A stretch of 63,583 bases of DNA, from NCBI RefSeq assembly GCF_000739875.1, contig NZ_BBJR01000049.1:1-63583 (forward strand). Reading direction: 5' to 3'. Position 1 is the stretch's first letter. Each line of letters opens with the position of its first letter. Made by a program: the position numbers and the translations under genes. This document shows, piece after piece, positions 1,847 through 42,647 of the stretch. The DNA is from Comamonas aquatica NBRC 14918. GTDB lineage: Bacteria; Pseudomonadota; Gammaproteobacteria; Burkholderiales; Burkholderiaceae_C. The notes below the pieces were generated by a model. That model made no database searches. It had not been told where the DNA came from and worked only from the letters and a program-made list of their open reading frames with translations.

Positions 1847-2398
1847 TCACGACATGCTTTTTCGCAAGCCCATGGCCATCTCGGCAGAGCATCGGGCATA
1901 GCGACTGATCGACTTGTCGCCCCGCTCCACCCGGGCCAGGATGCGCCGGGCCCAGTCCTTGCCGTCATCACGGCGGGGCAAGTTGACCTGCACCGGCTGC
2001 ACCTGGGGCGCAGGCAATGCCGTCCAGCCCTGCTGCTGGGCATAGGTCTGTGCTGGCTGAGCAGCCTCGCACTCGCGCTCAAACATCGGCAGCGTGGGGG
2101 CAAACTCCGGGCTGGCGCGCTTGATCCGGTCCACGGCCAGCTCCACCACCTCATCGCTGTAGCGGGCCAAAGCCGAATCCCAGACCAGCATGGCCATGCG
2201 CACACCCTTGTCCTGCCGGTCATCCCCGAGCTGGCCCGTGTGGAACTTCGACAGGAAAGAGCTGCCATAGGCGCCATGCAGCAGCACAAACAGCTTGCGG
2301 GTCCGGGCGCTGGCCTCACGCGCCGGCTTGCCTGCGGGCTGGTCCGTCGACCCCACGTGTGCAAGCCCCTGCTCGGCATAAAAGGCGGCATGGCTCAT
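1847..2398 (-). CDS. Putative phage helicase loader (replication P-like)
   Basis: This 183-residue protein is encoded directly after the O-like initiator with an ATGA overlap (2395-2398), the position held by P/DnaC-type helicase loaders in lambdoid phages. The first half has a hydrophobic segment ending in SFLSKFHTG, then a helical region with WDSALARYSDEVV and SPEFAPTLPMFERECE. That type of segment occurs in P-like replication proteins. No Walker A motif is visible, so it is not a DnaC-type ATPase. The functional call rests mainly on gene order and general resemblance. Confidence 0.5.
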   Translation of the reverse strand: MSHAAFYAEQGLAHVGSTDQPAGKPAREASARTRKLFVLLHGAYGSSFLSKFHTGQLGDDRQDKGVRMAMLVWDSALARYSDEVVELAVDRIKRASPEFAPTLPMFERECEAAQPAQTYAQQQGWTALPAPQVQPVQVNLPRRDDGKDWARRILARVERGDKSISRYARCSAEMAMGLRKSMS

Positions 2399-3285
2399 AG
2401 CACCACCCCGTCGTAAATCGCAGCTGCAGCGCCGGCAAACTTGCCCGCCCCTTGTTGCGCGCTGCCGGCACTGCCCGAGGCTCTGCGCCGGTCCACGCGG
2501 CGGACCCAGTTGCGCCAGGTCGCCTCCCAGTCCACCTTGCGCGCATCAGCCCCCGCCTTGCTGTGCCAGTGGTCGGCAAAGCACTCGGCCTCGCTGCGCA
2601 CATCCTCGGCAGTCAGGTCCTGGCGCTCCTGCAGCGCCCAGTCGCCCCAGCGCTTGGGCAGCACCCACCCCAGCGGCAGCCGCGTGCCCTTGGCCTTGTC
2701 TGCGCTGGGTGGTGGCCTCTGGGGCTCGGGGTCAGGCGAAGCCGAAGGCGCAGCAACGTCTGGCGTGACACCAGCCGCATTTCGACCAACAGAATCTAGT
2801 TCTACCTCTGTCCTTTCTACTTTGGTATCTGTATCTATATCTGTATCTGTACGCGTGACATCCGTACCAGTCACGCGTGACGCATCCGTGTCGGGTACGG
2901 AATCACCCGTGACATCGTTGCTGGGCGCGGCTTTGGCGGCCTTTTCTCGTGCGCGCTGACGCTTCTTGCGCTCGGCGGCAGTGGTGTCGTTATCGCTGCG
3001 CATCTGCAGGCCATCCCACTTCACTGGCTGCAGCGTGGCCTGGTCCACCAGCCCCACCTCGGCCAGCCGGCGCGCCACCTCCTCCAGGGAGCGAACGTCC
3101 AGGCCCAGCTTGACCGCCACCTTGCGCATCAACAGGCCGGGGGCATCCCCCTTGTCCAGCAGCCCCTCACCCTTCAGGCACAGCAGCGCCACAAAGTGCC
3201 AGCGGTCTTCAAAGGCCAGCAGCTTCAGCTTGTCGTCATCGACCATGCGTGTGTACACGCGGAACCAAGGCAGTTGCTTGCTCAT
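2395..3285 (-). CDS. Phage replication initiator-like protein (O-like)
   Basis: The 296-residue protein starts MSKQLPWFRVYTRM. The N-terminal domain (about 1-110) is the winged-helix type seen in phage replication proteins, followed by a basic stretch (ERKKRQRAREK). The middle (about 125-200) is a Thr/Asp- and Pro-rich low-complexity linker. The C-terminal domain (about 203-270) starts LPLGWVLPKRWGDWA and has DWEATWRNWVRR, a C-terminal module common in phage O-like and DnaT-like proteins. The start overlaps the upstream stop as ATGA. The linker is encoded by short direct repeats that may form the phage origin, as lambda ori lies inside gene O. Confidence 0.7.
   Translation of the reverse strand: MSKQLPWFRVYTRMVDDDKLKLLAFEDRWHFVALLCLKGEGLLDKGDAPGLLMRKVAVKLGLDVRSLEEVARRLAEVGLVDQATLQPVKWDGLQMRSDNDTTAAERKKRQRAREKAAKAAPSNDVTGDSVPDTDASRVTGTDVTRTDTDIDTDTKVERTEVELDSVGRNAAGVTPDVAAPSASPDPEPQRPPPSADKAKGTRLPLGWVLPKRWGDWALQERQDLTAEDVRSEAECFADHWHSKAGADARKVDWEATWRNWVRRVDRRRASGSAGSAQQGAGKFAGAAAAIYDGVVL
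2762..2913. other. Candidate phage origin: iteron-like repeats inside the O-like gene
   Basis: Four octamers of the form SNCGTGAC lie at 2762-2769, 2852-2859, 2874-2881 and 2906-2913. Two of them are exactly CGCGTGAC. Next to them, 2825-2848 holds four tandem hexamers (GTATCT three times, ATATCT once). Iterons beside a less GC-rich tract within the initiator gene is the lambda ori design. The repeats also encode a Thr-Asp linker, so coding bias is the competing explanation. Confidence 0.35.
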
Positions 3286-4089: not shown

Positions 4090-4145
4090 ACACGACTTGC
4101 CCCTGCCTTATCTGCTCCAACACAGCAGAGACTTCGTTGCGGCTT

Positions 4146-4409
4146 TCACCCATGGCTCACCTCTTGGGTGCTGGGTTGATCGGAGGGCTGTGCAAGTTCT
4201 GGCCAGATCACATGCCAGTCGTCAGGAAAGAGATCGCGGCGCGTTACCGTCGTCAGCTTTTCGAGTCGAGCAGCGCAAGCCGACGGAATCGGACGACGCC
4301 CGCTGATCCACTGGGAAATTTCGGATGGTGACTTGTTGAGTGCCTGTGCAAGTGCCGTTGGCCCTCCTGCATCGGCACTTGCTCGCTTAGCTAATGCTGC
4401 GTGTTTCAT
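4146..4409 (-). CDS. Cro/YdaS-like transcriptional regulator
   Basis: This 87-residue protein has a helix-turn-helix at about residues 14-50: GGPTALAQALNKSPSEISQW, then RRPIPSACAARLEKLT. That is the YdaS/Cro type, with the adjacent TTRRDLFPDDW tail common in such regulators. It is divergent from the CI-type repressor. The 71 bp between the two starts holds three copies of the TTAGC-N3-GCTAA operator, so this is the lytic-side repressor of the switch. It is the first gene of the leftward early operon. Confidence 0.85.
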   Translation of the reverse strand: MKHAALAKRASADAGGPTALAQALNKSPSEISQWISGRRPIPSACAARLEKLTTVTRRDLFPDDWHVIWPELAQPSDQPSTQEVSHG

Positions 4410-4418
4410 GCAACAAAT

Positions 4419-4479
4419 TTAGCACAGCTAAAGATATGCATCAAGCCATGCTAAATCAAATGCTTATTAGCATCGCTAA
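4419..4479. promoter_or_regulatory. Three-site operator region between cro and cI (OR-like)
   Basis: Dyads are TTAGCACAGCTAA (4419-4431), CAAGCCATGCTAA (4442-4454, one degenerate arm) and TTAGCATCGCTAA (4467-4479). Centres are 23 and 25 bp apart, close to the spacing of lambda OR1-OR3. The third site ends one base before the likely cI start codon. The same dyad recurs at 6904-6941. Confidence 0.8.
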
Positions 4480-4480
4480 C

Positions 4481-5254
4481 ATGAAAGAATGGACAACAGA
4501 GGAAGAAGCCGCCAACCTGCGTCGGCTGCTGGCTTCCGTCAAAAACAAAGCACAGTTCGCCAAGGACTTTGGCGTGCCTGGTGGTGCGTCTATGCTTTCA
4601 CAGCACCAAAGCGGCCATCGCCCCATCAGCCTTGAGGCGGCCAAGGCCTATGCAAGAGGATTGGGAATAAGCATTGGGGAGATCGCCCCGCGCTTTGCCA
4701 AGCTGGTCTCCGATGTGTCTGAGTTGACACAGCCTGCGGCTGCTGGCCATGAAGAGCCAAGCGGAGAGCGGCTGGCGCGCGTCATTGGCAACCCATCCAT
4801 ACCTGCCTACCACGCCCCCGACGCGGTACTTGTGCCGGTTCTGGCCAACTCTGCCAGCATGGGCGGTGGCGAAGCTTTGCTTGAGTCCGATGTGATTGTG
4901 GGCGACCTGGCACTGTCACCGCACTGGATCAATCAGCACATCCGTCCACAGAACCCACGAGAGTTGCGCTTCATCCACGCCTACGGTGACAGCATGGCAC
5001 CAACCTTCACGGATGGCGATGTGTTGCTGGTGGATACAGGGATTGGCGCGCGTGACCCGACTAGCCGCGAAGGCGTATACGTGCTCCAGGCTGGTGACAA
5101 GAACTACGTCAAGCGTGTTACGCCGACCTTCGATGGGAAGTTGCAAGTCACCAGCGACAACCCCAGCTCAAAGACTGTCCAGGTCTTGAATGGAGATCAT
5201 CAGGTGCAAGTCCTCGGACGAGTGGTGTGGGCTTGGAATGGTAAGAGGCTATGA
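4481..5254 (+). CDS. CI-type prophage repressor with S24 LexA-like peptidase domain
   Basis: From ATG 4481 the protein is about 257 residues. The N-terminal DNA-binding domain (about 1-65) includes SVKNKAQFAKDFGVPGG and ISLEAAKAYARGLGI. The C-terminal S24 domain has the serine site in YGDSMAPTFTDGDVLLVD and the lysine in DKNYVKRVTP, the Ser/Lys dyad of self-cleaving repressors. RecA-dependent induction is therefore expected. Upstream in-frame ATGs at 4436, 4448 and 4460 fall within the operators. ATG 4481 has no Shine-Dalgarno, which would suit a leaderless message like lambda cI from PRM. It overlaps the next gene as ATGA. Confidence 0.88.
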   Translation: MKEWTTEEEAANLRRLLASVKNKAQFAKDFGVPGGASMLSQHQSGHRPISLEAAKAYARGLGISIGEIAPRFAKLVSDVSELTQPAAAGHEEPSGERLARVIGNPSIPAYHAPDAVLVPVLANSASMGGGEALLESDVIVGDLALSPHWINQHIRPQNPRELRFIHAYGDSMAPTFTDGDVLLVDTGIGARDPTSREGVYVLQAGDKNYVKRVTPTFDGKLQVTSDNPSSKTVQVLNGDHQVQVLGRVVWAWNGKRL

Positions 5255-5985
5255 GCAGGATGCCAACTGAACTAGAAGTATTAGAAGTTGTGGGCAAGTC
5301 TGAGCAAGGCATTCAAGAGCCCTTTAAATGCATAGCAAGTGACGGGCACCTGTACTTCACCAAGGGTCGGCAAACCGACCGCGCAAGTCTTTGCAATGAA
5401 TGGATCTGCGCGCATTTGGCGCAAGCTTTAGGCTTGCCATTGCCACCATTCAGCATCTTGAATGTGTCACAAGAGCTGGTGGATGAACTACCAGGGGGCT
5501 GGAAAAGCATCGGCGAAGGCCCAGCCTTTGGTTCGCGCCAGCATGCTGGGTGTACATGGCTGGACCTAGCTCAGGTTCAGCACATCCCCCAAACGCTCCA
5601 AGCAGAAATTTTTGCCTTCGACTGGTGGATTCAGAACATTGATCGAACCGATGGCAATCCCAACCTGTTGTGGGATACCAACCAAAGCGCTCTAGTGATG
5701 ATTGACCACAACCTTGCCTTTGATCGTTCGCTAGATCCTGTGCTTTTTATTGAAAATCATATATTTAGACAGAGCTGGCAGCATGCAGACCTCGTCACAA
5801 GAAACTTGTTACAAGACAGGTTTTGCAGCGTTATCGAGACTGCTTTCGACTATGCCTGCGAGAATATTCCTCAATCGTGGCACTGGAACAATCCAGAATG
5901 TGACATTCCTTCGAATGTTGACCTTAATGCCATCCGTACGACACTAGTACGCTGCCAGTCGCCTGATTTTTGGAGGTTCGCATGA
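5251..5985 (+). CDS. HipA-like kinase-fold protein
   Basis: This 244-residue protein resembles the stand-alone HipA_2 family, shorter than full HipA. The catalytic-loop region reads NIDRTDGNPNLLW, with the D-R-x3-N arrangement, followed by a metal-binding motif in MIDHNLAF. The N-terminal part has FTKGRQTDRASLCNEW, where a phosphate-binding Lys and Glu would sit. It is coupled to the repressor gene (ATGA, 5251-5254) and to the DUF3037 gene (ATGA, 5982-5985). The sequence is more AT-rich than flanking phage genes. HipA_2 and DUF3037 proteins are known neighbours. A toxin or exclusion role expressed from the prophage is inferred, not shown. Confidence 0.75.
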   Translation: MSRMPTELEVLEVVGKSEQGIQEPFKCIASDGHLYFTKGRQTDRASLCNEWICAHLAQALGLPLPPFSILNVSQELVDELPGGWKSIGEGPAFGSRQHAGCTWLDLAQVQHIPQTLQAEIFAFDWWIQNIDRTDGNPNLLWDTNQSALVMIDHNLAFDRSLDPVLFIENHIFRQSWQHADLVTRNLLQDRFCSVIETAFDYACENIPQSWHWNNPECDIPSNVDLNAIRTTLVRCQSPDFWRFA

Positions 5986-6812
5986 AGCCTCTTGCCTGTC
6001 GCTTTTCGATCATTCAATTTGTTCCGTACACCGAAACCGGCGAGTTCGCCAACATCGGTGTCGTGCTGACATGCCCACAGACTGGGTACTTCAATTTTCT
6101 GTTGCAGAACAGAAAGTCCAAGCGCGTCACAGATTTCTTCGATGCACTCGACCGTGGCTTTTATATGAGCGCGGTTCGCACAGTCGAGGAGCAGCTTATG
6201 CGCTTACGCGCAACGGCCTACCAAGTCAGCAGCACCAACAAGGCAGAGACGTTGCGGACTCTGTTTGCCACGCTCGTACAACCGCGTGAAGCGATTGTGC
6301 GTTTCAGCGAAACAAAGGTTCTGCTCACGAACGATCCTGCACAAACTTTGAAAGAGAAGTTTGACCACTATGTTGGTCACTCCTTCGCAACACCTGAGTA
6401 CGTCGAACAAACGATGAATGCAAGGCTGCGGGACTTGCTGCAAGGGCTCAATTTGGTAGCGCCATTCAAGCCAGCACGCGTGGGTAACGATGCCGTCAGT
6501 GCTAAGTTCGACTTTGTACAAACCGTCGACAGCAAGCATTTGAAGATCATCAAAGCACTCAACTTGAGTCAAGCCGATGCAAACGACATAGCCGCACATG
6601 GCGATGTGTGGCGAGGAAAATTTGCTCGCCTTATGAAGATGAATGAGTTGCCTGATGACATCCTCATCAATGTCACACTGGCCTCTCCAAGCAAGACAGC
6701 ACACTACGATCTAGGCCAAGAAATCGTGCAGGAGCTATCCAAGCAGATGACTGTGATTGAGGGCTCGGGCCAAGCAGCCATGCGCGAAATACAAAAATTT
6801 GCCGAACGCTGA
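5982..6812 (+). CDS. DUF3037 family protein
   Basis: The 276-residue protein starts MKPLACRFSIIQFVPY, with GGAGG six bases upstream of the ATG. The N-terminal half (about 1-120) matches DUF3037: SIIQFVPYTETGEFANIGVVL and the FFDALD region. The C-terminal half is less conserved and helical. It is the third gene of the repressor operon and ends 22 bp before a strong terminator. Pairing with a HipA-like kinase suggests it is its partner, for example antitoxin, substrate or adaptor. Biochemical function is unknown. Confidence 0.75.
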   Translation: MKPLACRFSIIQFVPYTETGEFANIGVVLTCPQTGYFNFLLQNRKSKRVTDFFDALDRGFYMSAVRTVEEQLMRLRATAYQVSSTNKAETLRTLFATLVQPREAIVRFSETKVLLTNDPAQTLKEKFDHYVGHSFATPEYVEQTMNARLRDLLQGLNLVAPFKPARVGNDAVSAKFDFVQTVDSKHLKIIKALNLSQADANDIAAHGDVWRGKFARLMKMNELPDDILINVTLASPSKTAHYDLGQEIVQELSKQMTVIEGSGQAAMREIQKFAER

Positions 6813-6834
6813 TAGAGAGATATCCCATCAATAC

Positions 6835-6862
6835 AACCCGCAGCATGCTGCGGGTTTTTTTT
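6835..6862 (+). terminator. Terminator of the cI-hipA-like-DUF3037 operon
   Basis: A perfect 18-base palindrome CCCGCAGCATGCTGCGGG, flanked by AA/TT, is followed by eight T residues. It insulates the repressor operon from the promoter region that follows. Confidence 0.9.
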
Positions 6863-6892
6863 CGTCTACGAAGAGCTCAGCCAGGAAGATCT

Positions 6893-6941
6893 TTAGCAAA
6901 AATTTAGCAAAGCTATTGCATCAATAATTTAGCAATGCTAC
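6893..6941. promoter_or_regulatory. Second operator region (OL/PL-like)
   Basis: TTAGCAAAGCTAT (6904-6916) and TTAGCAATGCTAC (6929-6941) match the cro-cI operators. Their centres are 25 bp apart, and a further half site TTAGCAAA begins at 6893. The tract is AT-rich and has no gene. The next gene downstream is rightward, so this is the expected PL controlling the microgenes through to the integrase. Confidence 0.7.
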
Positions 6942-6944
6942 ATT

Positions 6945-7370
6945 TCAACCCATCGCAGCACCAACCGCGAAACACCCAAGGCCCAGCGATCAGAGGCCGA
7001 AGCCGACAGGAAGCAAAGGCGGGGTTAGCTCCAGAAGGAGCGCAGCAGGAGGTGCACCAGCGCGATGGGTGCCAAGTGATCGAGCCCGGCGCTCTAGGTC
7101 TTTAAAAGATCCTCCGCCGATGTTGCTCCCCAGCCTGTTTGGGGTTCGTCCGGCTCCATAGCGTCACCCGGCACGGCGGGTGCTCCGCGCAGTGTCCCGC
7201 TGTATCCAGTCGCCAAAGTGCGTACACGGTCAAAGGGTGAGGCAAACAGGGTTGCCAAGATCAGCAAATCCCACCGCGCAAGCGGCGCTGCCCTCTGAGC
7301 GACATCAGAGGGGAAACCAGAGCCTTGTGACAGAGGGCTGCGGTTTGCTTTCCATGCAGATTGAGGCTGC
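6945..7370 (+). other. Long structured untranslated leader of the rightward operon
   Basis: No convincing gene lies here. On the plus strand several compact hairpins follow one another: GCTCC-agaa-GGAGC (7028-7041), GCACC/GGTGC (7054-7072), CCGC-gcaa-GCGG with a GNRA loop (7274-7285) and CCCTCTGA/TCAGAGGG (7291-7312). The position just after PL and before many terminator-like hairpins is where lambda has nutL and HK022 has putL. An RNA-based antitermination element is one reading. No boxA/boxB pair was clearly identified. Confidence 0.4.
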
Positions 7371-7380
7371 TACAAAATTC

Positions 7381-7401
7381 TGTTTCAGTTTGATACAAAA
7401 T
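7381..7401 (+). promoter_or_regulatory. Conserved box upstream of microprotein gene, copy 1
   Basis: A 21-base block beginning TGTTTCAGTTTGATAC and ending in AAAAT lies 44 bp before the ATG at 7446. An identical block lies 43 bp before the paralogous gene at 40945. It contains an imperfect dyad GTTTCA-gtt-TGATAC and could be an operator, a promoter, or both. Confidence 0.6.
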
Positions 7402-7445
7402 CCGCCGATAACAACCCAAGTACACAAAAAGCTAAGGAGACAACT

Positions 7446-7574
7446 ATGAAGCGATGCATCATCAAGGTCGCAGGTGCGTGTTACACGGCCTTGTTCCCTA
7501 GCACCTGTGCAGCACTGGAGGATGCATTGAAGCGATTCCCCGGCGCAACAGCAATCAGCGTGAAGGCGGCATAA
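7446..7574 (+). CDS. Phage microprotein, MKRCIIKV family, copy 1
   Basis: The 42-residue protein starts MKRCIIKVAG, with a strong AAGGAGA site. The pattern is a beta strand (CIIKVAG), a turn with LFPST, a helix (CAALEDALKRFP) and a final strand (TAISVKAA), that is, a minimal beta-alpha-beta unit. A close paralogue is encoded at 40945 outside the prophage, and a divergent one at 12316. Conservation of protein, Shine-Dalgarno and upstream box shows it is a real gene. Function unknown. Confidence 0.75.
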   Translation: MKRCIIKVAGACYTALFPSTCAALEDALKRFPGATAISVKAA

Positions 7575-9088: not shown

Positions 9089-10198
9089 ATGAGCTACCAC
9101 AAAAGACGACTGGCGCGGCTCGATGAGCAAGAACACAGCGCAGATGCGGATCAACTTGGCAAAAGATCAACCCCAGAAGTTGCAGCGGGTAACGTGGAGA
9201 TCTATGATCTCCCACAAATGAAAACTACTGTTCGTCCCGCCCCCGCTTTGTCTGTATACAAAACTGCCTCCCGCACTGCGCAGTGGCTTTCATCCAAGCC
9301 CAGAGACGGCTCTGCCGTTCTGTTCCATGGCAGCTGTGAGGGTCTACTGAGCGCATTGCCTGACGCATCCATTGATTTAGTTGTCACCTCACCGCCTTAT
9401 TGCATGGGGAAAGCTTACGAAAAGCGTGGAGACGGGATTGACGACTTTGTCGCCAATCACAAATTGATATTGCCGGAAGTTTGCCGAATTCTTAAACCTG
9501 GAGGCAGCCTGTGCTGGCAAGTGGGCCTTCATGTACAAGAAGGCGTATCAACCCCGCTGGACTATCTTGTTTACGACATTATGCGAAACATAGATGGCAT
9601 GAAATTGCGCAACCGCATTGCTTGGACTTTTGGCCATGGCCTTCATTGCCGCACGCGCTTCAGCGGTCGTCACGAAACTGTGCTCTGGTTTACTAAGGGA
9701 GATGACTACACATTCGATCTTGATGCTATCCGAATTCCTCAAAAATACCCTGGAAAGCAGCACACAAGTGGCCCCAAGAAGGGGCAGCCAAGTGGAAATC
9801 CGGCAGGGAAGAATCCAGGTGATGTCTGGGATATCCCTAACGTAAATTCAAATCATGTCGAGAAAACAGAGCATCCATGCCAATTTCCCGTTGGGTTGGT
9901 ACAACGACTGGTACGAGCTTTAACAAAGCCCGGAGACATAGTTCTGGATCCCTTCTGCGGCGTCGCATCTAGCGGCGTCGCCACAGTAGTTGAGGGACGA
10001 TCCTTTATTGGAGCAGAGCTCGATAACGCCTACATCCAGATTGGCAAAAATCGCCTGAAAGATGCACAGAATGGCAAAGCAAGATTCCGACCTGCTGATC
10101 GTGCGATACACCAACCAAGTCCAACTTCGATAGTTGGTCGGCGGCCCGAGAACTTCGCGTCTGCAGCATCCGACTTACGTTATCCGTTCGCCTTATAG
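9089..10198 (+). CDS. DNA methyltransferase, TSPPY beta-class
   Basis: The 369-residue protein has catalytic motif IV TSPPY at about residues 99-103. The S-adenosylmethionine motif (LDPFCGVASSG) comes later, at about 286, which is the beta-class order. TSPPY is typical of N4-cytosine enzymes but also occurs in some N6-adenine enzymes. Residues 1-70 are a charged extension, and the insert around 225-255 (GPKKGQPSGNPAGKNPGDVW) resembles the target-recognition loop of this group. It ends with a 6-bp tail-to-tail overlap with the DGQHR gene on the other strand. It may modify phage DNA against host restriction or protect it from the facing nuclease-like protein. Confidence 0.85.
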   Translation: MSYHKRRLARLDEQEHSADADQLGKRSTPEVAAGNVEIYDLPQMKTTVRPAPALSVYKTASRTAQWLSSKPRDGSAVLFHGSCEGLLSALPDASIDLVVTSPPYCMGKAYEKRGDGIDDFVANHKLILPEVCRILKPGGSLCWQVGLHVQEGVSTPLDYLVYDIMRNIDGMKLRNRIAWTFGHGLHCRTRFSGRHETVLWFTKGDDYTFDLDAIRIPQKYPGKQHTSGPKKGQPSGNPAGKNPGDVWDIPNVNSNHVEKTEHPCQFPVGLVQRLVRALTKPGDIVLDPFCGVASSGVATVVEGRSFIGAELDNAYIQIGKNRLKDAQNGKARFRPADRAIHQPSPTSIVGRRPENFASAASDLRYPFAL

Positions 10199-11986
10199 GC
10201 TGCTTCTTTTAACAACACGGGGCTTAGATTTCGGCTCCAATTCAGGAGACTGTATAGAGAGCGTTGCCATCAAATCAGTTGCAAGCCTCGCCCATGCGCT
10301 ACTTGAGTAATTCTTGAAAGGGAAATTATCTATATCTTCAAACAATTTTTTATAGTCAATACTGGCTGGAGTCATTTTATTTTTAACCAATCGATCCATA
10401 AGCAAAAGAAAGCCGCCAACTACGGTGGTTGAAAGAATGCCACCACTCGGCACAGACTTCCATTTATGCTTTAAATGTGAAGCAGCCCCTTGAAGTAGTC
10501 GCTTAAGTTGATCTACACTGTAATTTACAAACTCTTCTCTATCTATTTCATTACGCAAATCACGACTGCCCGTATTATCCCAAGTTTGGTAGAATGCACT
10601 TCTTGGTTTAGTGAGAGACTCAACTACATATGGACCAAGTGATGCCGATGCAATTTTATCTGGTGGATCAAACTGAGACATTGACATTTTCCCAGCAAGC
10701 GGGCCTTCTTTCGACAATCTAATTACAATAAGGCGTGCAATCGCAGTACTACTCTCTGGATTGATAATTGTTTCCAGATCTTGTCGCAATTGTGGGTTAA
10801 CAGGACTTTGGTTGTTGTTAATCCCAAGAAATATTTCTGCCTCAAACTTCGCGCGCATCTCAGCTGAATACGATGGCGGGAAAATAATTCCTGTTACCAG
10901 CAGATTTTGACGTACTCTCAGACGGTCGATAGCCGCCTCTGTCGCACCTGAACCTTCGTAATAAGACAAGATTCGATGTTGCCCATCTACAATACCTACG
11001 GTCCCGAGTTCTAGTGGTAGCTGCAATTGCACTAAAGTCTTGTTAGACAAGGCCTCTGGAGCAACCGGCAGCATCGATTTACTGTCCATAAGCTGTGCCG
11101 TAGACGGTAATGTCACCACGAGATTGTTTATAAAAACCTTACCATTGTCAGCCAAGTACTCGCGCATTGCCACAAGCTTTTCCGCTTTAACGAAACGTTG
11201 GTAAGACAAGTCGGGGTCCTCCCATCCGTCACGACGCAAGACATAAGATCGTGAAATCAATGCTTGTGGATCCGCATAAAACGAAACCACAGCGAATCCA
11301 GGCGGATAACTAGTGTGGGCTGCCGGCAGGGCAAAAGCAGGAAAGCTGTTTAATGAGACACTACTGCCTGATATTCGCGCTTGCCCTGTTTGATGAAGCG
11401 CAATTCCAAGATATTTTAATAACTCAAACTTTGCAGAGCGTTCGATAGTTTCGACTAGGGATGTAAAGTACTTGGCTTGTGCCCTAGTGAGTATCAAGAA
11501 TGGTTCAGTCGAACCCATATCAATATCTGCCATTTCAGAAAAATAGATATGGCGCACCTCTAAATCATGCTGACCATAAGAGGTACCAATCGCGTCTAAT
11601 AGCGATTTACTTCTTGAATTAAAAACGGTAAAAAAACTATCGAAATCAGCGGCAATTCTGCCATGAAAAACGATTTTGTTTGTGCAATGTTTAGTTGGGT
11701 GTGCTTCAGTAGTTTCCTCACAAAGGAGGACAACATTCTCCCAAACAAATATATGATCAATCTCGCCCGCTCTACCTCCAACCTGGAAATGCAAATTATC
11801 CGATTCGACGTGCTTAAAGCCAGCACCCTCGAAAATTCTTCGGAGAATAGATTTCGAGGATGAAAACCCTGTGGCAGAGGAATTATCTTTCGGAGCTAAC
11901 TTCCGACTCTTTGCTTGGATCGGTGCTTGCGTTTTCTTTATTGCTTTCAATGGCGGCTTTGCCACCGCTTTTTTTTGTGCTCGCAC
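10193..11986 (-). CDS. DGQHR-domain (DndB-like) protein with possible nuclease-like N-terminus
   Basis: This 597-residue protein starts at GTG 11986, with a Lys-rich tail (1-35). Around residues 70-95, GRAGEIDHIFV followed by VVLLCEETTE resembles the core strands of a PD-(D/E)XK nuclease. Residues about 280-420 hold the DGQHR motif (VDGQHRILSYYEG) and the FLGINNNQSPVNP segment, both typical of DGQHR/DndB proteins. Base composition is clearly more AT-rich than neighbouring genes, a sign of transfer. It converges on the methyltransferase. DndB proteins regulate DNA phosphorothioation, but other DGQHR proteins sit in unrelated defence loci. The specific role is inferred. Confidence 0.75.
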   Translation of the reverse strand: MRAQKKAVAKPPLKAIKKTQAPIQAKSRKLAPKDNSSATGFSSSKSILRRIFEGAGFKHVESDNLHFQVGGRAGEIDHIFVWENVVLLCEETTEAHPTKHCTNKIVFHGRIAADFDSFFTVFNSRSKSLLDAIGTSYGQHDLEVRHIYFSEMADIDMGSTEPFLILTRAQAKYFTSLVETIERSAKFELLKYLGIALHQTGQARISGSSVSLNSFPAFALPAAHTSYPPGFAVVSFYADPQALISRSYVLRRDGWEDPDLSYQRFVKAEKLVAMREYLADNGKVFINNLVVTLPSTAQLMDSKSMLPVAPEALSNKTLVQLQLPLELGTVGIVDGQHRILSYYEGSGATEAAIDRLRVRQNLLVTGIIFPPSYSAEMRAKFEAEIFLGINNNQSPVNPQLRQDLETIINPESSTAIARLIVIRLSKEGPLAGKMSMSQFDPPDKIASASLGPYVVESLTKPRSAFYQTWDNTGSRDLRNEIDREEFVNYSVDQLKRLLQGAASHLKHKWKSVPSGGILSTTVVGGFLLLMDRLVKNKMTPASIDYKKLFEDIDNFPFKNYSSSAWARLATDLMATLSIQSPELEPKSKPRVVKRSSL

Positions 11987-13631: not shown

Positions 13632-13764
13632 GGGCGAAGTCTACGCTCAGCAACCCCACCAGATCAGATGAACCAGGGCTCTAGCACCCGTAAACTCATT
13701 TCGGTGCGGTTCGCAAAATTGCGGCCCCTGGAACTGAACAAACGAGCAAGGAGGGGGAGTGACA

Positions 13765-15132
13765 ATGACATTGGAGAAAGGGCCGACTGGCCGGATTAAA
13801 GGTCTTCGCAAACTGCTTGAGGGCATCACCAAAGAGGATGTCCTCCAAGCTATTGCAAGCTTTAACGTTGACGAAGCAGCGGATCATGGCTTTGCGGAGT
13901 CCACGGATTTCGACCTCGTGCATGACGGGCGCCGTTTCCCGCCCAAAGCCATATTCGGGTTGGCTGCAGCCAGAACAATCGGCAGACCGCTCACGTCGTC
14001 CGAGTTCTCTGGGGGTGATAGCTCTCCATGCTTTGCCGTTCTTCGTGCACTCGGCTTCACTGTTGAAAGAAAGCGAACCTCGGAGGTGATGCCATCTGCT
14101 GGCTCCTCACTGCTACGGCTACAGGCCTATAACCGCGAAGAGATTGCTCGGGTCTTTGAACCTGACGCGAAATTCACCCCAGGGGCGGGACGCTGGGGCA
14201 TGCCGGGCATCGTTGAGTCACCACGGGACAGTGGCAATTTCGTCTTCATGGTGACGCTGGGTAAGCCAGACGCTAGCAACCCATATCAAGACGCGCTTAC
14301 GCTGGATGGCCGACTCATCTGGGAATCGCAGACCCAACAGGGCTTTGATTCGCCAACGATTCGCAAGCTGCTGGTCCATGACCCTATCGTGAACAACGTT
14401 CACTTGTTCTTGCGCGCTCAAAAGGGTGACAAGTACACGTACTTTGGCCTGCTCAGCTACTTCTCCCACGATCCGAACAAGCAAAACCCTGTCCATTTCA
14501 TTTGGACTGTTCAGAACTGGGACATTGATCAGGACCAGTTGAAGCGCTTGGGCATCCCTGCCCTGCCACCACTGGACCCAGCGTTTTCACTGTCACCACC
14601 CATGCCTGTGACTGCGTCGCTCTCACGGACTGAACCGCCTGCGATCAAAGCGAAACCAAGCACAGGCCCTCGGTCTAAGAAGAAGTCATCGGGTGGAGAA
14701 GTGGATTGGGCTGCCCGCGACCTTAGAAATAGGCAACTGGGCCTGCAGGGCGAAAAGCTGGTTGTGCAGTACGAGATCAGCAGGCTGAAGGCTGCAGGAC
14801 GATCGGACCTGGCGAATAAAGTCCAACACGTGGCCCTCACAGACAGCGCTGCCGGCTACGACATTGCTTCGTTTCACTTAGATGGGAGACCAAAACGCAT
14901 CGAGGTGAAGGCCACTCAGGGACCAGCATCTACGCCCTTCTACATTTCGATGAATGAGGTCTTGGCTTCGCGGGATGACGTGAGCTGCTTCTCGATTTAC
15001 CGCGTTTTTGGTCTTAAACCAGATAACGAAGAAGTCCAGTTCTTTGAGCTCGAAGGCGACGTTGAAGACCACTGCGGCCTTGACCCGGTGAGCTTCAGGG
15101 CTACGCCTGGAGCCAACCAAACAGACCTTTGA
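13765..15132 (+). CDS. Restriction-like protein: ScoMcrA-N / DUF3427 / DUF3883 nuclease
   Basis: The protein is about 455 residues. AAGGAGG sits 10 bp before ATG 13765 and 4 bp before GTG 13759, so either start is possible. Residues about 12-100 resemble the ScoMcrA N-terminal head (ITKEDVLQAI, HDGRRFPPKAIFGLA). About 125-275 match a DUF3427-like beta-rich domain (TPGAGRWGMPGIV, DGRLIWESQTQQ). About 325-440 match DUF3883, a PD-(D/E)XK fold, with LGLQGEKLVVQYE, GYDIASF and IEVKAT giving the acidic and Glu-x-Lys positions. This domain order suggests a type IV, modification-sensing restriction enzyme, so a prophage-carried defence gene against modified phage DNA is likely. Confidence 0.75.
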   Translation: MTLEKGPTGRIKGLRKLLEGITKEDVLQAIASFNVDEAADHGFAESTDFDLVHDGRRFPPKAIFGLAAARTIGRPLTSSEFSGGDSSPCFAVLRALGFTVERKRTSEVMPSAGSSLLRLQAYNREEIARVFEPDAKFTPGAGRWGMPGIVESPRDSGNFVFMVTLGKPDASNPYQDALTLDGRLIWESQTQQGFDSPTIRKLLVHDPIVNNVHLFLRAQKGDKYTYFGLLSYFSHDPNKQNPVHFIWTVQNWDIDQDQLKRLGIPALPPLDPAFSLSPPMPVTASLSRTEPPAIKAKPSTGPRSKKKSSGGEVDWAARDLRNRQLGLQGEKLVVQYEISRLKAAGRSDLANKVQHVALTDSAAGYDIASFHLDGRPKRIEVKATQGPASTPFYISMNEVLASRDDVSCFSIYRVFGLKPDNEEVQFFELEGDVEDHCGLDPVSFRATPGANQTDL

Positions 15133-15211: not shown

Positions 15212-15217
15212 ATGCCA

Positions 15218-16039
15218 ATGAAACACATCGTCTGCTACTCAGGCGGGCACAGCTCTGCACTGGTTGCACTTGAAGTGGCTCACCGCTTTGGCACCAAGCA
15301 CCTGGTGCTGCTGAACCACGACATGCATTTCAGCGTGGAGCACGCGGACATCAAGCGCTTTAAGCGCGACGTGGCCGAGCACTTGGGGGTGCCGCTGACG
15401 TTCGCCAGCCGCCGCAACGCGACACAGGACCAGTTTGATGTGTGCGTCGAATCCGATGCTTTCAAGGTCAACAACGGCCAGGAGATATGCACAGCACGCT
15501 TGAAGACTGAGCCATTTATGGAGTGGCTGGCCTCCAATGCATCACAGGATGACAGCACCATTTACTACGGCTTCGATGCCACAGAGCCAAGTCGTATCCA
15601 GCGGCGCATAGGGATCATGGGCACGCTGGGCTGGAAGACCGACTACCCGCGAATCTGGGAAGAACGCAAATACGAGAACACCGAGGCCCTAGGCATACCG
15701 CGCCCATGCACTTACAGCGTTTTCAAGCACGGCAACTGCATCGGGTGCCTCAAGGCAGGCTGGCAACACTGGTACATCGTCTACTGCACCCGTCCCGACA
15801 TTTGGCTCAAGGCGATGTGGGCAGAGGATGAAATCGGCCATGCCATCCACTGGGACGGCGACAAGCCGGTCTACCTGGAGGACATGGAGCCGCGCTTTGC
15901 TGCCATGAAAGCGGCAGGCATCCCAGCAACCGAGCGCATACCGCATCAGCGGTTCTGGGCCCAGGCCAGGCGAATCATCCCGATCTCGGACATGCAAATA
16001 AGGATCAGCCTTCCTTGTGATTGCCACGAGCCTTCGTGA
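15218..16039 (+). CDS. PAPS reductase/PP-loop ATPase family phage protein
   Basis: From ATG 15218 the protein has 273 residues. ATG 15212 is less likely because the CGGA site lies directly before it. The PP-loop is CYSGGHSSALVALE (about residues 5-18). Downstream features include a Cys in GQEICTARLKTEPF and a cluster CIGCLKAGWQHWYIVYC around 171-187. It belongs to the adenine-nucleotide-hydrolase superfamily of PAPS reductase and DndC-like proteins. Compact versions are frequent in phages and their substrate is mostly unknown. The Cys residues could hold an Fe-S cluster or carry sulfur. A link to nucleic-acid thiolation is possible but unproven. Confidence 0.75.
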   Translation: MKHIVCYSGGHSSALVALEVAHRFGTKHLVLLNHDMHFSVEHADIKRFKRDVAEHLGVPLTFASRRNATQDQFDVCVESDAFKVNNGQEICTARLKTEPFMEWLASNASQDDSTIYYGFDATEPSRIQRRIGIMGTLGWKTDYPRIWEERKYENTEALGIPRPCTYSVFKHGNCIGCLKAGWQHWYIVYCTRPDIWLKAMWAEDEIGHAIHWDGDKPVYLEDMEPRFAAMKAAGIPATERIPHQRFWAQARRIIPISDMQIRISLPCDCHEPS

Positions 16040-16769: not shown

Positions 16770-17023
16770 AACACCACGACCCAGCAGCCAAGCATGCCGC
16801 CGCACCTGAAGTGCGCATCACGATAGAGCCTGAATGGGTTCTGGCCTCGAAGTACGAAGAACTCACGGGCACCACTCCCAACGCCGTCCACCAGCGCCGC
16901 AAAGAAGGTGTCTGGCTTGATGGAACGCACTGTGCAGTGATTGCACGGCGCCTTTATGTCAACGTGAAGGAAGCAGACAAATGGATAAGAAGCCAAGTCT
17001 CTCAACGCCAACGGGCATATTAA
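16766..17023 (+). CDS. Excisionase-like protein (Xis)
   Basis: The 85-residue protein starts MKHHDPAAKHAAAPE with GGAGG upstream. The core (about 22-75) reads EWVLASKYEELTGTTPNAVHQRRKEGVWLDG, followed by RRLYVNVKEADKW. That is a winged helix-turn-helix of the phage excisionase type. It overlaps the integrase by 43 bp, the usual xis-int arrangement. It would bend the attachment region DNA and bias recombination towards excision. Confidence 0.8.
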   Translation: MKHHDPAAKHAAAPEVRITIEPEWVLASKYEELTGTTPNAVHQRRKEGVWLDGTHCAVIARRLYVNVKEADKWIRSQVSQRQRAY

Positions 17024-18156
17024 TTCGCCAGATGGCATCAGGCCCACGCATTCAAGTGGCCTTTACCTGGGAGGGCAAGCAGTGCCGAGAGCTGCTTCCG
17101 CCCTGCCCGATCAACAAGGGTTCGTTGCAGTACGCCGCCAACCTGCGCGGCGAGATCCTGCGACGGATTGCAGATGGGAAATTCGTCTACAAAGAGTATT
17201 TCCCTGAGAGCACCAGAGCCAGGAAGCGCGCCATCAACTCCAGCCTGATGGAGGAGCTGCTTTACAAGCAGCTGCAGCTCTATCAAAAGCAGGTTGAGAA
17301 CGGGAAGATGTCACCCGCAACCTTCGCAGGGTACAAAAAGAGCCTCACCGGAGAACGTATGCAGCGCTGGCACGGCATGGAGCTGCACGAGGTGACACCA
17401 GTCCTGCTGCGAGACTGGATCAGCAGCATGGACTGCACCGCCAAGGCCATTCGCAACATGCTGACGCCGCTGCGCTCAGTGTTTGAAGATGCCCTCAATG
17501 ACGGGCTTGTCGTGAGCAACCCGTTTGACCAAATCGCCTTGGCCAAGCTGATTCGGCAAAACAGCAAGTCCAGCGACTACGTGATTGAGCCCTTCAGCCA
17601 AGCAGAGCGCGAAGCGATTTTGGCGGCCTGCCGGGACGATGAACGCCCCACCTTCCAGTTCTGGTTCAACACCGGTCTGCGCCCTGGTGAGCTGCAGGCG
17701 CTCGAGTGGCACCACATTGACTTGGCGAAAGCAACCGCCCGCATCGAGCTCAACCAGGTTGTAGGGGTAATCAAGAGCCCCAAAACAGCGGCCGGGGTTC
17801 GTGTCGTAGACCTCAATGCCGATGCAATCGCGGCCCTTGAAGCGCAAAAACCGATCAGCATGCAGCGCGGTCAGCGGGTTTTTCTCAATCCACGGACCCT
17901 GGCGCCCTGGTCTACAGACGCGCAAGTGCGAAAAACAGCCTGGCTGCCGATCATGGAGCGTTCGGGGATCAAGTACCGGAACCCGTACCAAATCCGGCAC
18001 ACCTACGCCTCAACCATGCTGACTGCAGGCGCCAATCCTTGGTACGTGGCCAGCCAGTTGGGGCACGAAGACGTAGAGATGGTCTTCCGCACCTATGGAA
18101 AGTTCATCCGGGAAGACTTCCAAAAACCCAAGCCAGCACCGCAACTCGCCAAGTGA
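16981..18156 (+). CDS. int: Phage tyrosine integrase
   Basis: This 391-residue protein has an arm-binding N-terminal domain (about 10-75, RIQVAFTWEGKQCRELLP and YKEYFPES), a core-binding SAM-like domain (about 90-185) and a catalytic domain. Catalytic residues are visible: Arg in NTGLRPGELQALEW, Lys in IKSPKTAAGVR, His-x-x-Arg region NPYQIRHTYAS, the later His in SQLGHEDVEM and the nucleophile Tyr in FRTYGKF. It lies 145 bp from the 3' end of the tmRNA gene, so this phage uses ssrA as its attachment site. Confidence 0.92.
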   Translation: MDKKPSLSTPTGILIRQMASGPRIQVAFTWEGKQCRELLPPCPINKGSLQYAANLRGEILRRIADGKFVYKEYFPESTRARKRAINSSLMEELLYKQLQLYQKQVENGKMSPATFAGYKKSLTGERMQRWHGMELHEVTPVLLRDWISSMDCTAKAIRNMLTPLRSVFEDALNDGLVVSNPFDQIALAKLIRQNSKSSDYVIEPFSQAEREAILAACRDDERPTFQFWFNTGLRPGELQALEWHHIDLAKATARIELNQVVGVIKSPKTAAGVRVVDLNADAIAALEAQKPISMQRGQRVFLNPRTLAPWSTDAQVRKTAWLPIMERSGIKYRNPYQIRHTYASTMLTAGANPWYVASQLGHEDVEMVFRTYGKFIREDFQKPKPAPQLAK

Positions 18157-18293: not shown

Positions 18294-18301
18294 GTGGTGG
18301 A

Positions 18302-18680
18302 TGGTGGAGCTGGCGGGAATTGAACCCGCGTCCGCAAGCCTTCGTCAGGCAGATCTACATGTTTAGTGTTCTGATTTTTAATCTCGCCCTGTATGCCGCG
18401 CAGACACACGCTTCAAACAAGGCCAGCACCCTTGAATCTTGCCCAATACCAAGGTGCCCGGTACCAAGCCAGCTGATGTGAATTCCCTTGCAGCCGAGAG
18501 GTATTGCTACCCCTTTGCCCAGCCCATCAGCGTGCTGTTGCAAGGCTCACCGGATTTAAGCGGCGAGTGCGAAACGTTCGTCGTTTGCAGTTAGTTTTTT
18601 GAATGGAGATTTACGAGCATCACTCAAGCTCGACATGCACCACACTGATCCCGAACCCACGTCGAAACCAGGACAGCCCC
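18302..18680 (-). ncRNA. ssrA: tmRNA (transfer-messenger RNA)
   Basis: The 5' end GGGGCTGTCCTGG and 3' end CAGCTCCACCA form the acceptor stem. The T-arm GGTTCAATTCCCG is clear near the 3' end. The tag frame (18588-18556) encodes ANDERFALAA then TAA, with the resume alanine codon first. tmRNA rescues stalled ribosomes with SmpB and tags products for proteolysis. The 5' end is 12 bp from the gph stop, so the promoter lies in the end of gph; a TAGAAT -10-like box overlaps the gph stop codon. The 3' end is the insertion point of the prophage. Confidence 0.95.
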
Positions 18681-34680: not shown

Positions 34681-34757
34681 TGGTCGGAGCGGCGGGATTC
34701 GAACTCGCGACCCTCTGCTCCCAAAGCAGATGCGCTACCAGACTGCGCTACGCTCCG
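34681..34757 (-). tRNA. tRNA-Pro (anticodon UGG), copy 1
   Basis: 77 nt, from 5' CGGAGCG to 3' CGCTCCGACCA. The anticodon loop is CTTTGGGAG, giving anticodon TGG. The T-arm is GTTCGAATC and the CCA is encoded. It is identical to the copy at 42571, and identity extends 6 bp upstream of the 5' end. Confidence 0.96.
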
Positions 34758-42570: not shown

Positions 42571-42647
42571 TGGTCGGAGCGGCGGGATTCGAACTCGCGA
42601 CCCTCTGCTCCCAAAGCAGATGCGCTACCAGACTGCGCTACGCTCCG
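42571..42647 (-). tRNA. tRNA-Pro (anticodon UGG), copy 2
   Basis: Identical 77-nt gene to 34681-34757, with identity continuing to 42653. Anticodon TGG, CCA encoded. It lies 62 bp downstream of infA. Confidence 0.96.

Follow-up and report, generated by a model that had tools for sequence, protein, structure and literature searches.

A prophage of Comamonas aquatica NBRC 14918, probably inserted at the ssrA gene, likely bears a HipAD toxin-antitoxin module directed against phages. The module would be a passenger of the prophage's immunity region, in which the order is OR - cI - passenger bay - terminator - OL. The window, i.e., the whole stretch of DNA analyzed, comprises 63,583 nt (contig NZ_BBJR01000049.1). 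Judged by its profile matches the gene pair behind the prophage repressor is HipAD (PDC-M66 in PADLOC, DS-6 in DefensePredictor), a kinase toxin with a DUF3037 antitoxin, and it is probably an abortive-infection defence linked to lysogeny. Both the type of slot and the kind of system were already known; what goes beyond routine annotation is the definition of the bay by operators, the numbers for the two homes of the pair, and a possible nuclease-like domain in the antitoxin.

Organization of the repressor operon

The genes for CI, HipA, and HipD form one apparent operon on the plus strand, with the S24 repressor first and a single terminator. The CI-type repressor occupies the open reading frame 4394-5254 (Peptidase_S24, E 1.6e-14) and likely extends from 4481 to 5254 (257 aa), a start at 4481 being probable because the operator-like sites at 4419-4479 end at 4479. 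Its residues Ser200 and Lys240 (numbered from 4394), which we take to be catalytic, are invariant in an alignment of 55 repressors. The HipA_2 kinase toxin HipA follows at 5251-5985 (244 aa, alternative start at 5260; Pfam HipA_2, E 2.6e-81; PADLOC PDC-M66A, E 2e-20), and then the DUF3037 antitoxin HipD at 5982-6812 (276 aa; Pfam DUF3037, E 4.5e-25; PADLOC PDC-M66B, E 4.1e-22 over residues 7-256). The intrinsic terminator at 6835-6862 is composed of a strong terminator-like hairpin (6835-6856) and a T run. Divergent from the repressor, at 4146-4409 on the minus strand, lies the gene of a Cro/YdaS-like regulator (Pfam YdaS_toxin, E 3.9e-13; P22_Cro, E 6.8e-4, below its cut-off; PHROG transcriptional repressor). 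The Pfam matches, the layout, and the hairpin bear out the first-pass annotation, which had described a repressor, a kinase, and a DUF3037 protein as one operon with a shared terminator. The layout suggests that the three genes are co-transcribed; a promoter scan of 4100-7100, in which the sole promoter-like site was on the minus strand, says little because the cI promoter was likewise not found.

An ATGA had been claimed for both joints, and the letters are indeed present at 5251-5254 (CI/HipA) and at 5982-5985 (HipA/HipD), but the claim stands firmly for the second joint only. The start of HipA is ambiguous, as many close homologues begin no more than one residue from Met4 of the window protein (nt 5260), and the CI/HipA joint is therefore either a 4-nt overlap or a 5-nt gap. 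Where viral-set loci have an adjacent S24 ORF (55 loci, the set being drawn from the best 80 of 134 viral loci), such a repressor/kinase overlap was found in five, namely in the window, in two near copies (L087 and L110), and in two loci where the start is unsure (L108 and L126), so that the first ATGA is both uncertain in the window and unusual among the other loci. The 4-nt overlap between kinase and HipD is near-universal and more than chance, occurring in 155 of 159 pairs (from the best 80 of 200 genome loci, the best 80 of 134 viral loci, the phage records, and the window) when a -4 start is taken by script wherever one exists. HipD is preceded by the ribosome-binding site GGAGG, 5 nt upstream of its ATG, with a duplex energy in the window of -10.0 kcal/mol as compared to -5.2 for HipA and -2.4 for random positions. 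Among the best-loci set the means are -6.7 for HipD (n = 155) and -5.0 for HipA (n = 159), the HipA starts having been guessed by length.

The two passengers had also been described as more AT-rich than neighboring phage genes. With a GC content of 49.1% (HipA_2) and 50.9% (DUF3037) this is true with respect to CI (56.2%), the integrase (57.9%), and a replication gene (65.1%), but not to the methyltransferase (51.1%) and the DndB-like gene (43.4%) of the prophage, which are about as AT-rich or more.

A probable prophage in ssrA

A replication-type gene (2395-3285; PHROG primosomal/replication initiation) lies to the left of the operon, and the tyrosine integrase of the prophage is found at 16981-18156 on the plus strand (Pfam Phage_integrase, E 2.3e-16), immediately preceding the 3' end of ssrA, the gene for tmRNA (18302-18680, minus strand). 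The putative att core is a 30-bp exact repeat at this tmRNA end (18301-18330); its second copy in this genome is on contig C21, in surroundings where no tmRNA was found. Judging from this arrangement, the right-hand portion of a prophage inserted in ssrA is probably what the window contains, and the left end of that prophage is probably on C21. The same prophage carries further candidate defence genes, which encode a type II-like methyltransferase (9089-10198), a DndB/DpdB-like protein (10193-11986, minus strand; a weak candidate), a NOV_C protein (13759-15132; PDC-S36 match, E 1.7e-47), and an SspD-like protein (15212-16039; E 4.5e-8). Elsewhere in the window two identical tRNA-Pro(TGG) genes (34681-34757 and 42571-42647), about 7.8 kb apart and sharing 83 identical bp in all, are possible edges of a small integrated element.

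A passenger bay between operator-like sites

The operon is bracketed by two clusters of operator-like sites. The OR-like cluster (4419-4479) contains exact copies of TTAGCANNGCTAA at 4419-4431 and 4467-4479 with a weaker copy (two mismatches) at 4442-4454, while the OL-like cluster (6892-6941) contains copies with one mismatch each at 6904-6916 and 6929-6941, 25 nt apart, and a partial copy at about 6892. Allowing at most one mismatch there are seven matches in the window on both strands, at 4419, 4467, 6904, and 6929 only, where 0.42 are expected; none of 100 shuffles attained seven, a figure which is optimistic because the motif was picked after inspecting both regions. With two mismatches the excess is weak (13 vs. 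7.7). Independent evidence comes from 50 viral-contig loci with a related CI. In all four close relatives (L167, L168, L169, and L179; CI matched over residues 1-286 with 78-80% identity) the start of cI carries two exact copies with the same 48-nt spacing that is seen in the window, and there are distal sites with one mismatch, one in L167 and two, 25 nt apart, in each of the others. In L181 and L182, where CI has 51-52% identity and the match begins at residue 34 or 30, a single exact site precedes cI and another lies far downstream. The upstream pair of sites was found in none of the other 44 CI-related loci, including a few with 38-44% identity whose alignment reaches into the N-terminal part; a single match with one mismatch is present in one of these 44 more distant loci (L191).

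Neither HipA nor HipD turned up in the 50 CI-related loci, where flanks of up to 5 kb were covered; the same holds for another 17 CI relatives, taken from 399 genomes of the family with flanks of about 1.5 kb. Among the CI relatives that have the sites, the distance from cI to the distal sites changes with the passenger. The bay of L168 contains almost nothing, that of L179 a GNAT gene, and that of L181 a weak HNH match and a P63C gene. In L167 an AT-rich gene for 510 aa (6003-7535) stands alone in the same repressor bay; it has no Pfam match and a weak HEPN-type PADLOC match (E 1.5e-4), and is another candidate defence gene. Just past the OL-like sites of the window there is a match to the Burkholderiales-2 RNA of Rfam (7116-7188, minus strand; 81.7 bits, gathering score 67.9).

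In phage lambda the layout is OR - cI - rexAB - OL. Because repressor-type operator-like sites bracket the operon, with both genes downstream of cI and inside the predicted OR-OL interval, HipAD appears to occupy the bay that holds rexAB in lambda, and the rexAB-like placement proposed on first inspection is upheld. The interval between cI and n of lambdoid phages is described as a hotspot of mosaic diversity (PMC8585504).

Comparison with HipAD and other known systems

The window shows several features of HipAD, namely a HipA_2 kinase gene, an adjacent DUF3037 partner second in the operon, and intact kinase catalytic residues. The predicted fold of HipA matches CtkA, HipA, and HipT and is thus that of a HipA kinase (L002 and L004 were left out of the structure alignment set). 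In the best-loci set K38 is conserved in 161 of 161 non-gap sequences, D131 in 164 of 164, N136 in 163 of 164, and D152 in 164 of 164; these we take to be the catalytic residues, with roles assigned from knowledge of HipA. A separate class is present in the bacterial family of the window, where in 14 of 14 loci (L250-L263) a distant HipA_2 kinase precedes a DUF3037 protein that consists of the head only (118-138 aa), and His or Gln stands at the kinase position aligned with D152. Because D152 is replaced in this class, not every HipA_2/DUF3037 pair need work alike, and the role of the head-only class may be other than defence.

Among the papers listed in searches of a paper library for DUF3037, HipAD, and PDC-M66, only PMC12548924 and PMC13092281 deal with the pair. 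The former reports that HipA and DUF3037 of the retron Sda1 locus defend against Bas51 as a stand-alone defence, that deletion of HipA abolishes this defence, and that deletion of DUF3037 is toxic (PMC12548924). In the latter, DS-6 was renamed HipAD, a kinase catalytic mutant of DS-6A was reported to lose defence, and AF3 predicted a complex of DS-6 A and B (PMC13092281). These results, obtained by others on homologues, make the first-pass statement that no mechanism had been described outdated. The toxin/antitoxin or superinfection-exclusion role then proposed is plausible. The pair of the retron Sda1 locus belongs to the same two families as that of the window, but has retron genes as its neighbors instead of a phage repressor.

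The GenBank record of Escherichia phage PhiR5_1 lists cI, a HipA toxin, and a HipD antitoxin in this order on one strand. As in the window, HipA_2 is followed by DUF3037 with a 4-nt overlap directly downstream of cI in a prophage, and the alignments span most of both window proteins (HipA residues 10-210, 35% identity over 212 alignment columns; HipD residues 6-237, 34% over 240). The host and the repressor are different, however, and the PhiR5_1 annotation places HipA 122 nt downstream of cI and not, as in the window, at the cI stop codon. We counted the identity of about 35% to this coliphage homologue against the reading of the window pair as a HipAD defence, together with D177 and A192 of the window HipD, which sit where most family members have Pro.

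Defence genes at the site of the repressor are already known from BstA (PMC8585504), CarolAnn 43/44 (PMC6426606), and RexABpp (PMC12894663). Like the window pair, lambda rexAB, BstA, genes 43/44 of Gordonia phage CarolAnn, and RexABpp of Pseudomonas putida lie downstream of a prophage repressor or are expressed together with it; unlike the window pair, they act by other mechanisms, and no shared family was seen. No Rex match was present in the scan results for Pfam, PADLOC, PHROGs, and NCBIfam, libraries which may lack Rex models. The window pair is also distinct from HipBA and HipBST, since its HipA_2 kinase is without the N-terminal part of HipA (the top-row fold match begins at about HipA residue 125 or later), its partner is DUF3037 and not HipB or HipS, and the gene preceding the kinase encodes the S24 repressor and not a small HipB-type HTH antitoxin.

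Recurrence and two homes of the pair

The distribution of the pair was addressed with the best 80 of 200 genome-contig loci, the best 80 of 134 viral-contig loci, three phage records (the only ones among 50,697 with a match), and the window, counts over 164 loci being made after L001, L165, and L166 had been left out as duplicates. HipD follows HipA in 159 of the 164, and in the remaining five the contig ends about 0.8 kb or less from HipA. In the viral set (84 loci; the best 80 of 134 viral-contig loci, the three phage records, and the window) a same-strand S24 ORF lies at most 600 nt upstream in 55 loci, including PhiR5_1 with its cI-HipA-HipD, as compared to one of the 80 genome loci (best 80 of 200), from Xanthomonas vasicola. 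Recurrence beside repressors, the lack of which was one part of what the first-pass proposal had named as refuting it, was therefore found. After dereplication at 95% an adjacent S24 repressor is present in 38 of 54 viral-set loci (from the best 80 of 134); given how the 55 were selected, checking them against the S24 Pfam model can only be confirmatory. Since 29 of the 84 viral-set loci (from the best 80 of 134) are without an S24 ORF within 600 nt, the linkage is usual and not obligatory; seven of the 29 have a same-strand S24 ORF 0.7-1.3 kb upstream, and among 27 upstream ORFs scanned from such loci five match phage regulator families and five DinI. The S24 profile was built up on the collected loci with the window CI as its seed and would miss other types of repressor. 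Viral and chromosomal contigs do not make a pure control, because the genes of a prophage are in any case closer to a repressor than those of the chromosome are; by our estimate a phage offers only a few repressor-adjacent slots among dozens of genes. On a kinase tree built by a quick method (132 of 136 rows after 95% dereplication, four under 200 aa being dropped) 13 changes of the repressor label are required, and well-supported branches force at least 10 of them; on this tree gain and loss of the repressor neighbor are indistinguishable and several long branches are unsure.

On chromosomes HipAD often follows type I restriction genes. For 65 of the 80 genome loci (L005-L084, best 80 of 200) an upstream ORF of at least about 150 aa was scanned, and 19 of these match Methylase_S (hsdS), four HSDR_N, and three Mrr_cat, the ORF being picked mechanically as the longest same-strand ORF ending nearby and hence in some cases spurious. 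A preprint on defences embedded in immune systems is cited in PMC13092281, and we therefore claim no novelty for this association.

Proposed function and alternatives

In a lysogen a CI-controlled transcript would give rise to the repressor, the kinase toxin, and the antitoxin, and HipD, with translation starting at a strong ribosome-binding site that is coupled to the 3' end of the gene for HipA, would keep the HipA kinase inactive. Upon infection by an unrelated phage some signal would release the kinase, which would phosphorylate an essential target and stop growth or phage production, and this abortive infection would shield both the lysogen population and the resident prophage. The prophage would need a way not to trip HipAD when it grows lytically itself. 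Induction may shut off the cI transcript, and the self-immunity element reported for BstA indicates that phages solve this problem in other ways (PMC8585504).

HipD itself is composed of two parts according to its structure model and fold comparison (L002, L003, L030, and L071 left out of the alignment set), a DUF3037 head (residues ~1-135) and a second domain (~138-276). Even proteins of about 120-140 aa that have the head only retain the E-F-x-N-x-G of the DUF3037 motif. The predicted fold of the second domain resembles restriction endonucleases without their catalytic acids, a resemblance which is suggestive only. DUF1829, annotated in DS-6B (PMC13092281), was not found in the window HipD by hmmscan at E up to 0.01. 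A bolder version of the model, which we think unlikely although worth stating, is that HipD is a sensor and antitoxin in one: the head would hold the kinase, and the second domain, a retired restriction-endonuclease fold (PD-(D/E)XK with its acids replaced and the lysine kept), would sense foreign or damaged DNA and free the kinase. Phages would then have repeatedly placed this sensor in the repressor bay, armed exactly while the prophage is silent and off on induction.

Prophage addiction, in which HipA outlasts HipD so that prophage-free cells are stopped or killed, would make phage defence secondary or absent and the site in the cI operon a mere means of ensuring expression in the lysogen. 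Toxin-antitoxin logic, the reported toxicity of antitoxin deletion in a homologue (PMC12548924), the conserved kinase/HipD joint, and the strong HipD ribosome-binding site all agree with it; we nevertheless hold it to be improbable, as homologues are reported to defend against phages (PMC12548924, PMC13092281) and many chromosomal copies follow type I restriction genes (the 19 of 65 upstream ORFs above, best 80 of 200 loci), where loss of a prophage is irrelevant. Alternatively, the pair could modulate the decision between lysis and lysogeny, tuning the CI switch or delaying induction as reported for RexA, with HipD perhaps binding DNA via its second domain. Its position between OR-like and OL-like sites, the report that lambda RexA binds DNA and biases the switch (PMC11077077), and an AF3 model of DS-6B with DNA (ipTM 0.67; PMC13092281) are in keeping with this. 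We consider such a role very unlikely, since in 79 of 80 chromosomal loci with the pair (best 80 of 200) no repressor was picked up by the S24 profile and since the neighboring repressors are diverse (mean column identity 17% in the 55-member alignment), a diversity which also makes specific operator binding by HipD unlikely. That the pair is decayed or inert cargo, as the departure of some HipD residues from the family consensus might suggest, is highly improbable given that both frames are intact and that the kinase residues, the DUF3037 motif, the strong HipD ribosome-binding site, and the ATGA joint are all kept.

Implications

With HipAD as the preferred reading, the range of this system now reaches beyond coliphages to a Comamonas prophage, and its two homes have been put in numbers, one being the repressor operons of prophages and the other the chromosome, where the pair often stands behind genes for type I restriction. 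The second domain of HipD offers a concrete and testable proposal for how infection may be sensed. Because the edges of the bay are readable from repressor operators on both sides, scanning the interval from cI to the distal operator could reveal further defence genes.
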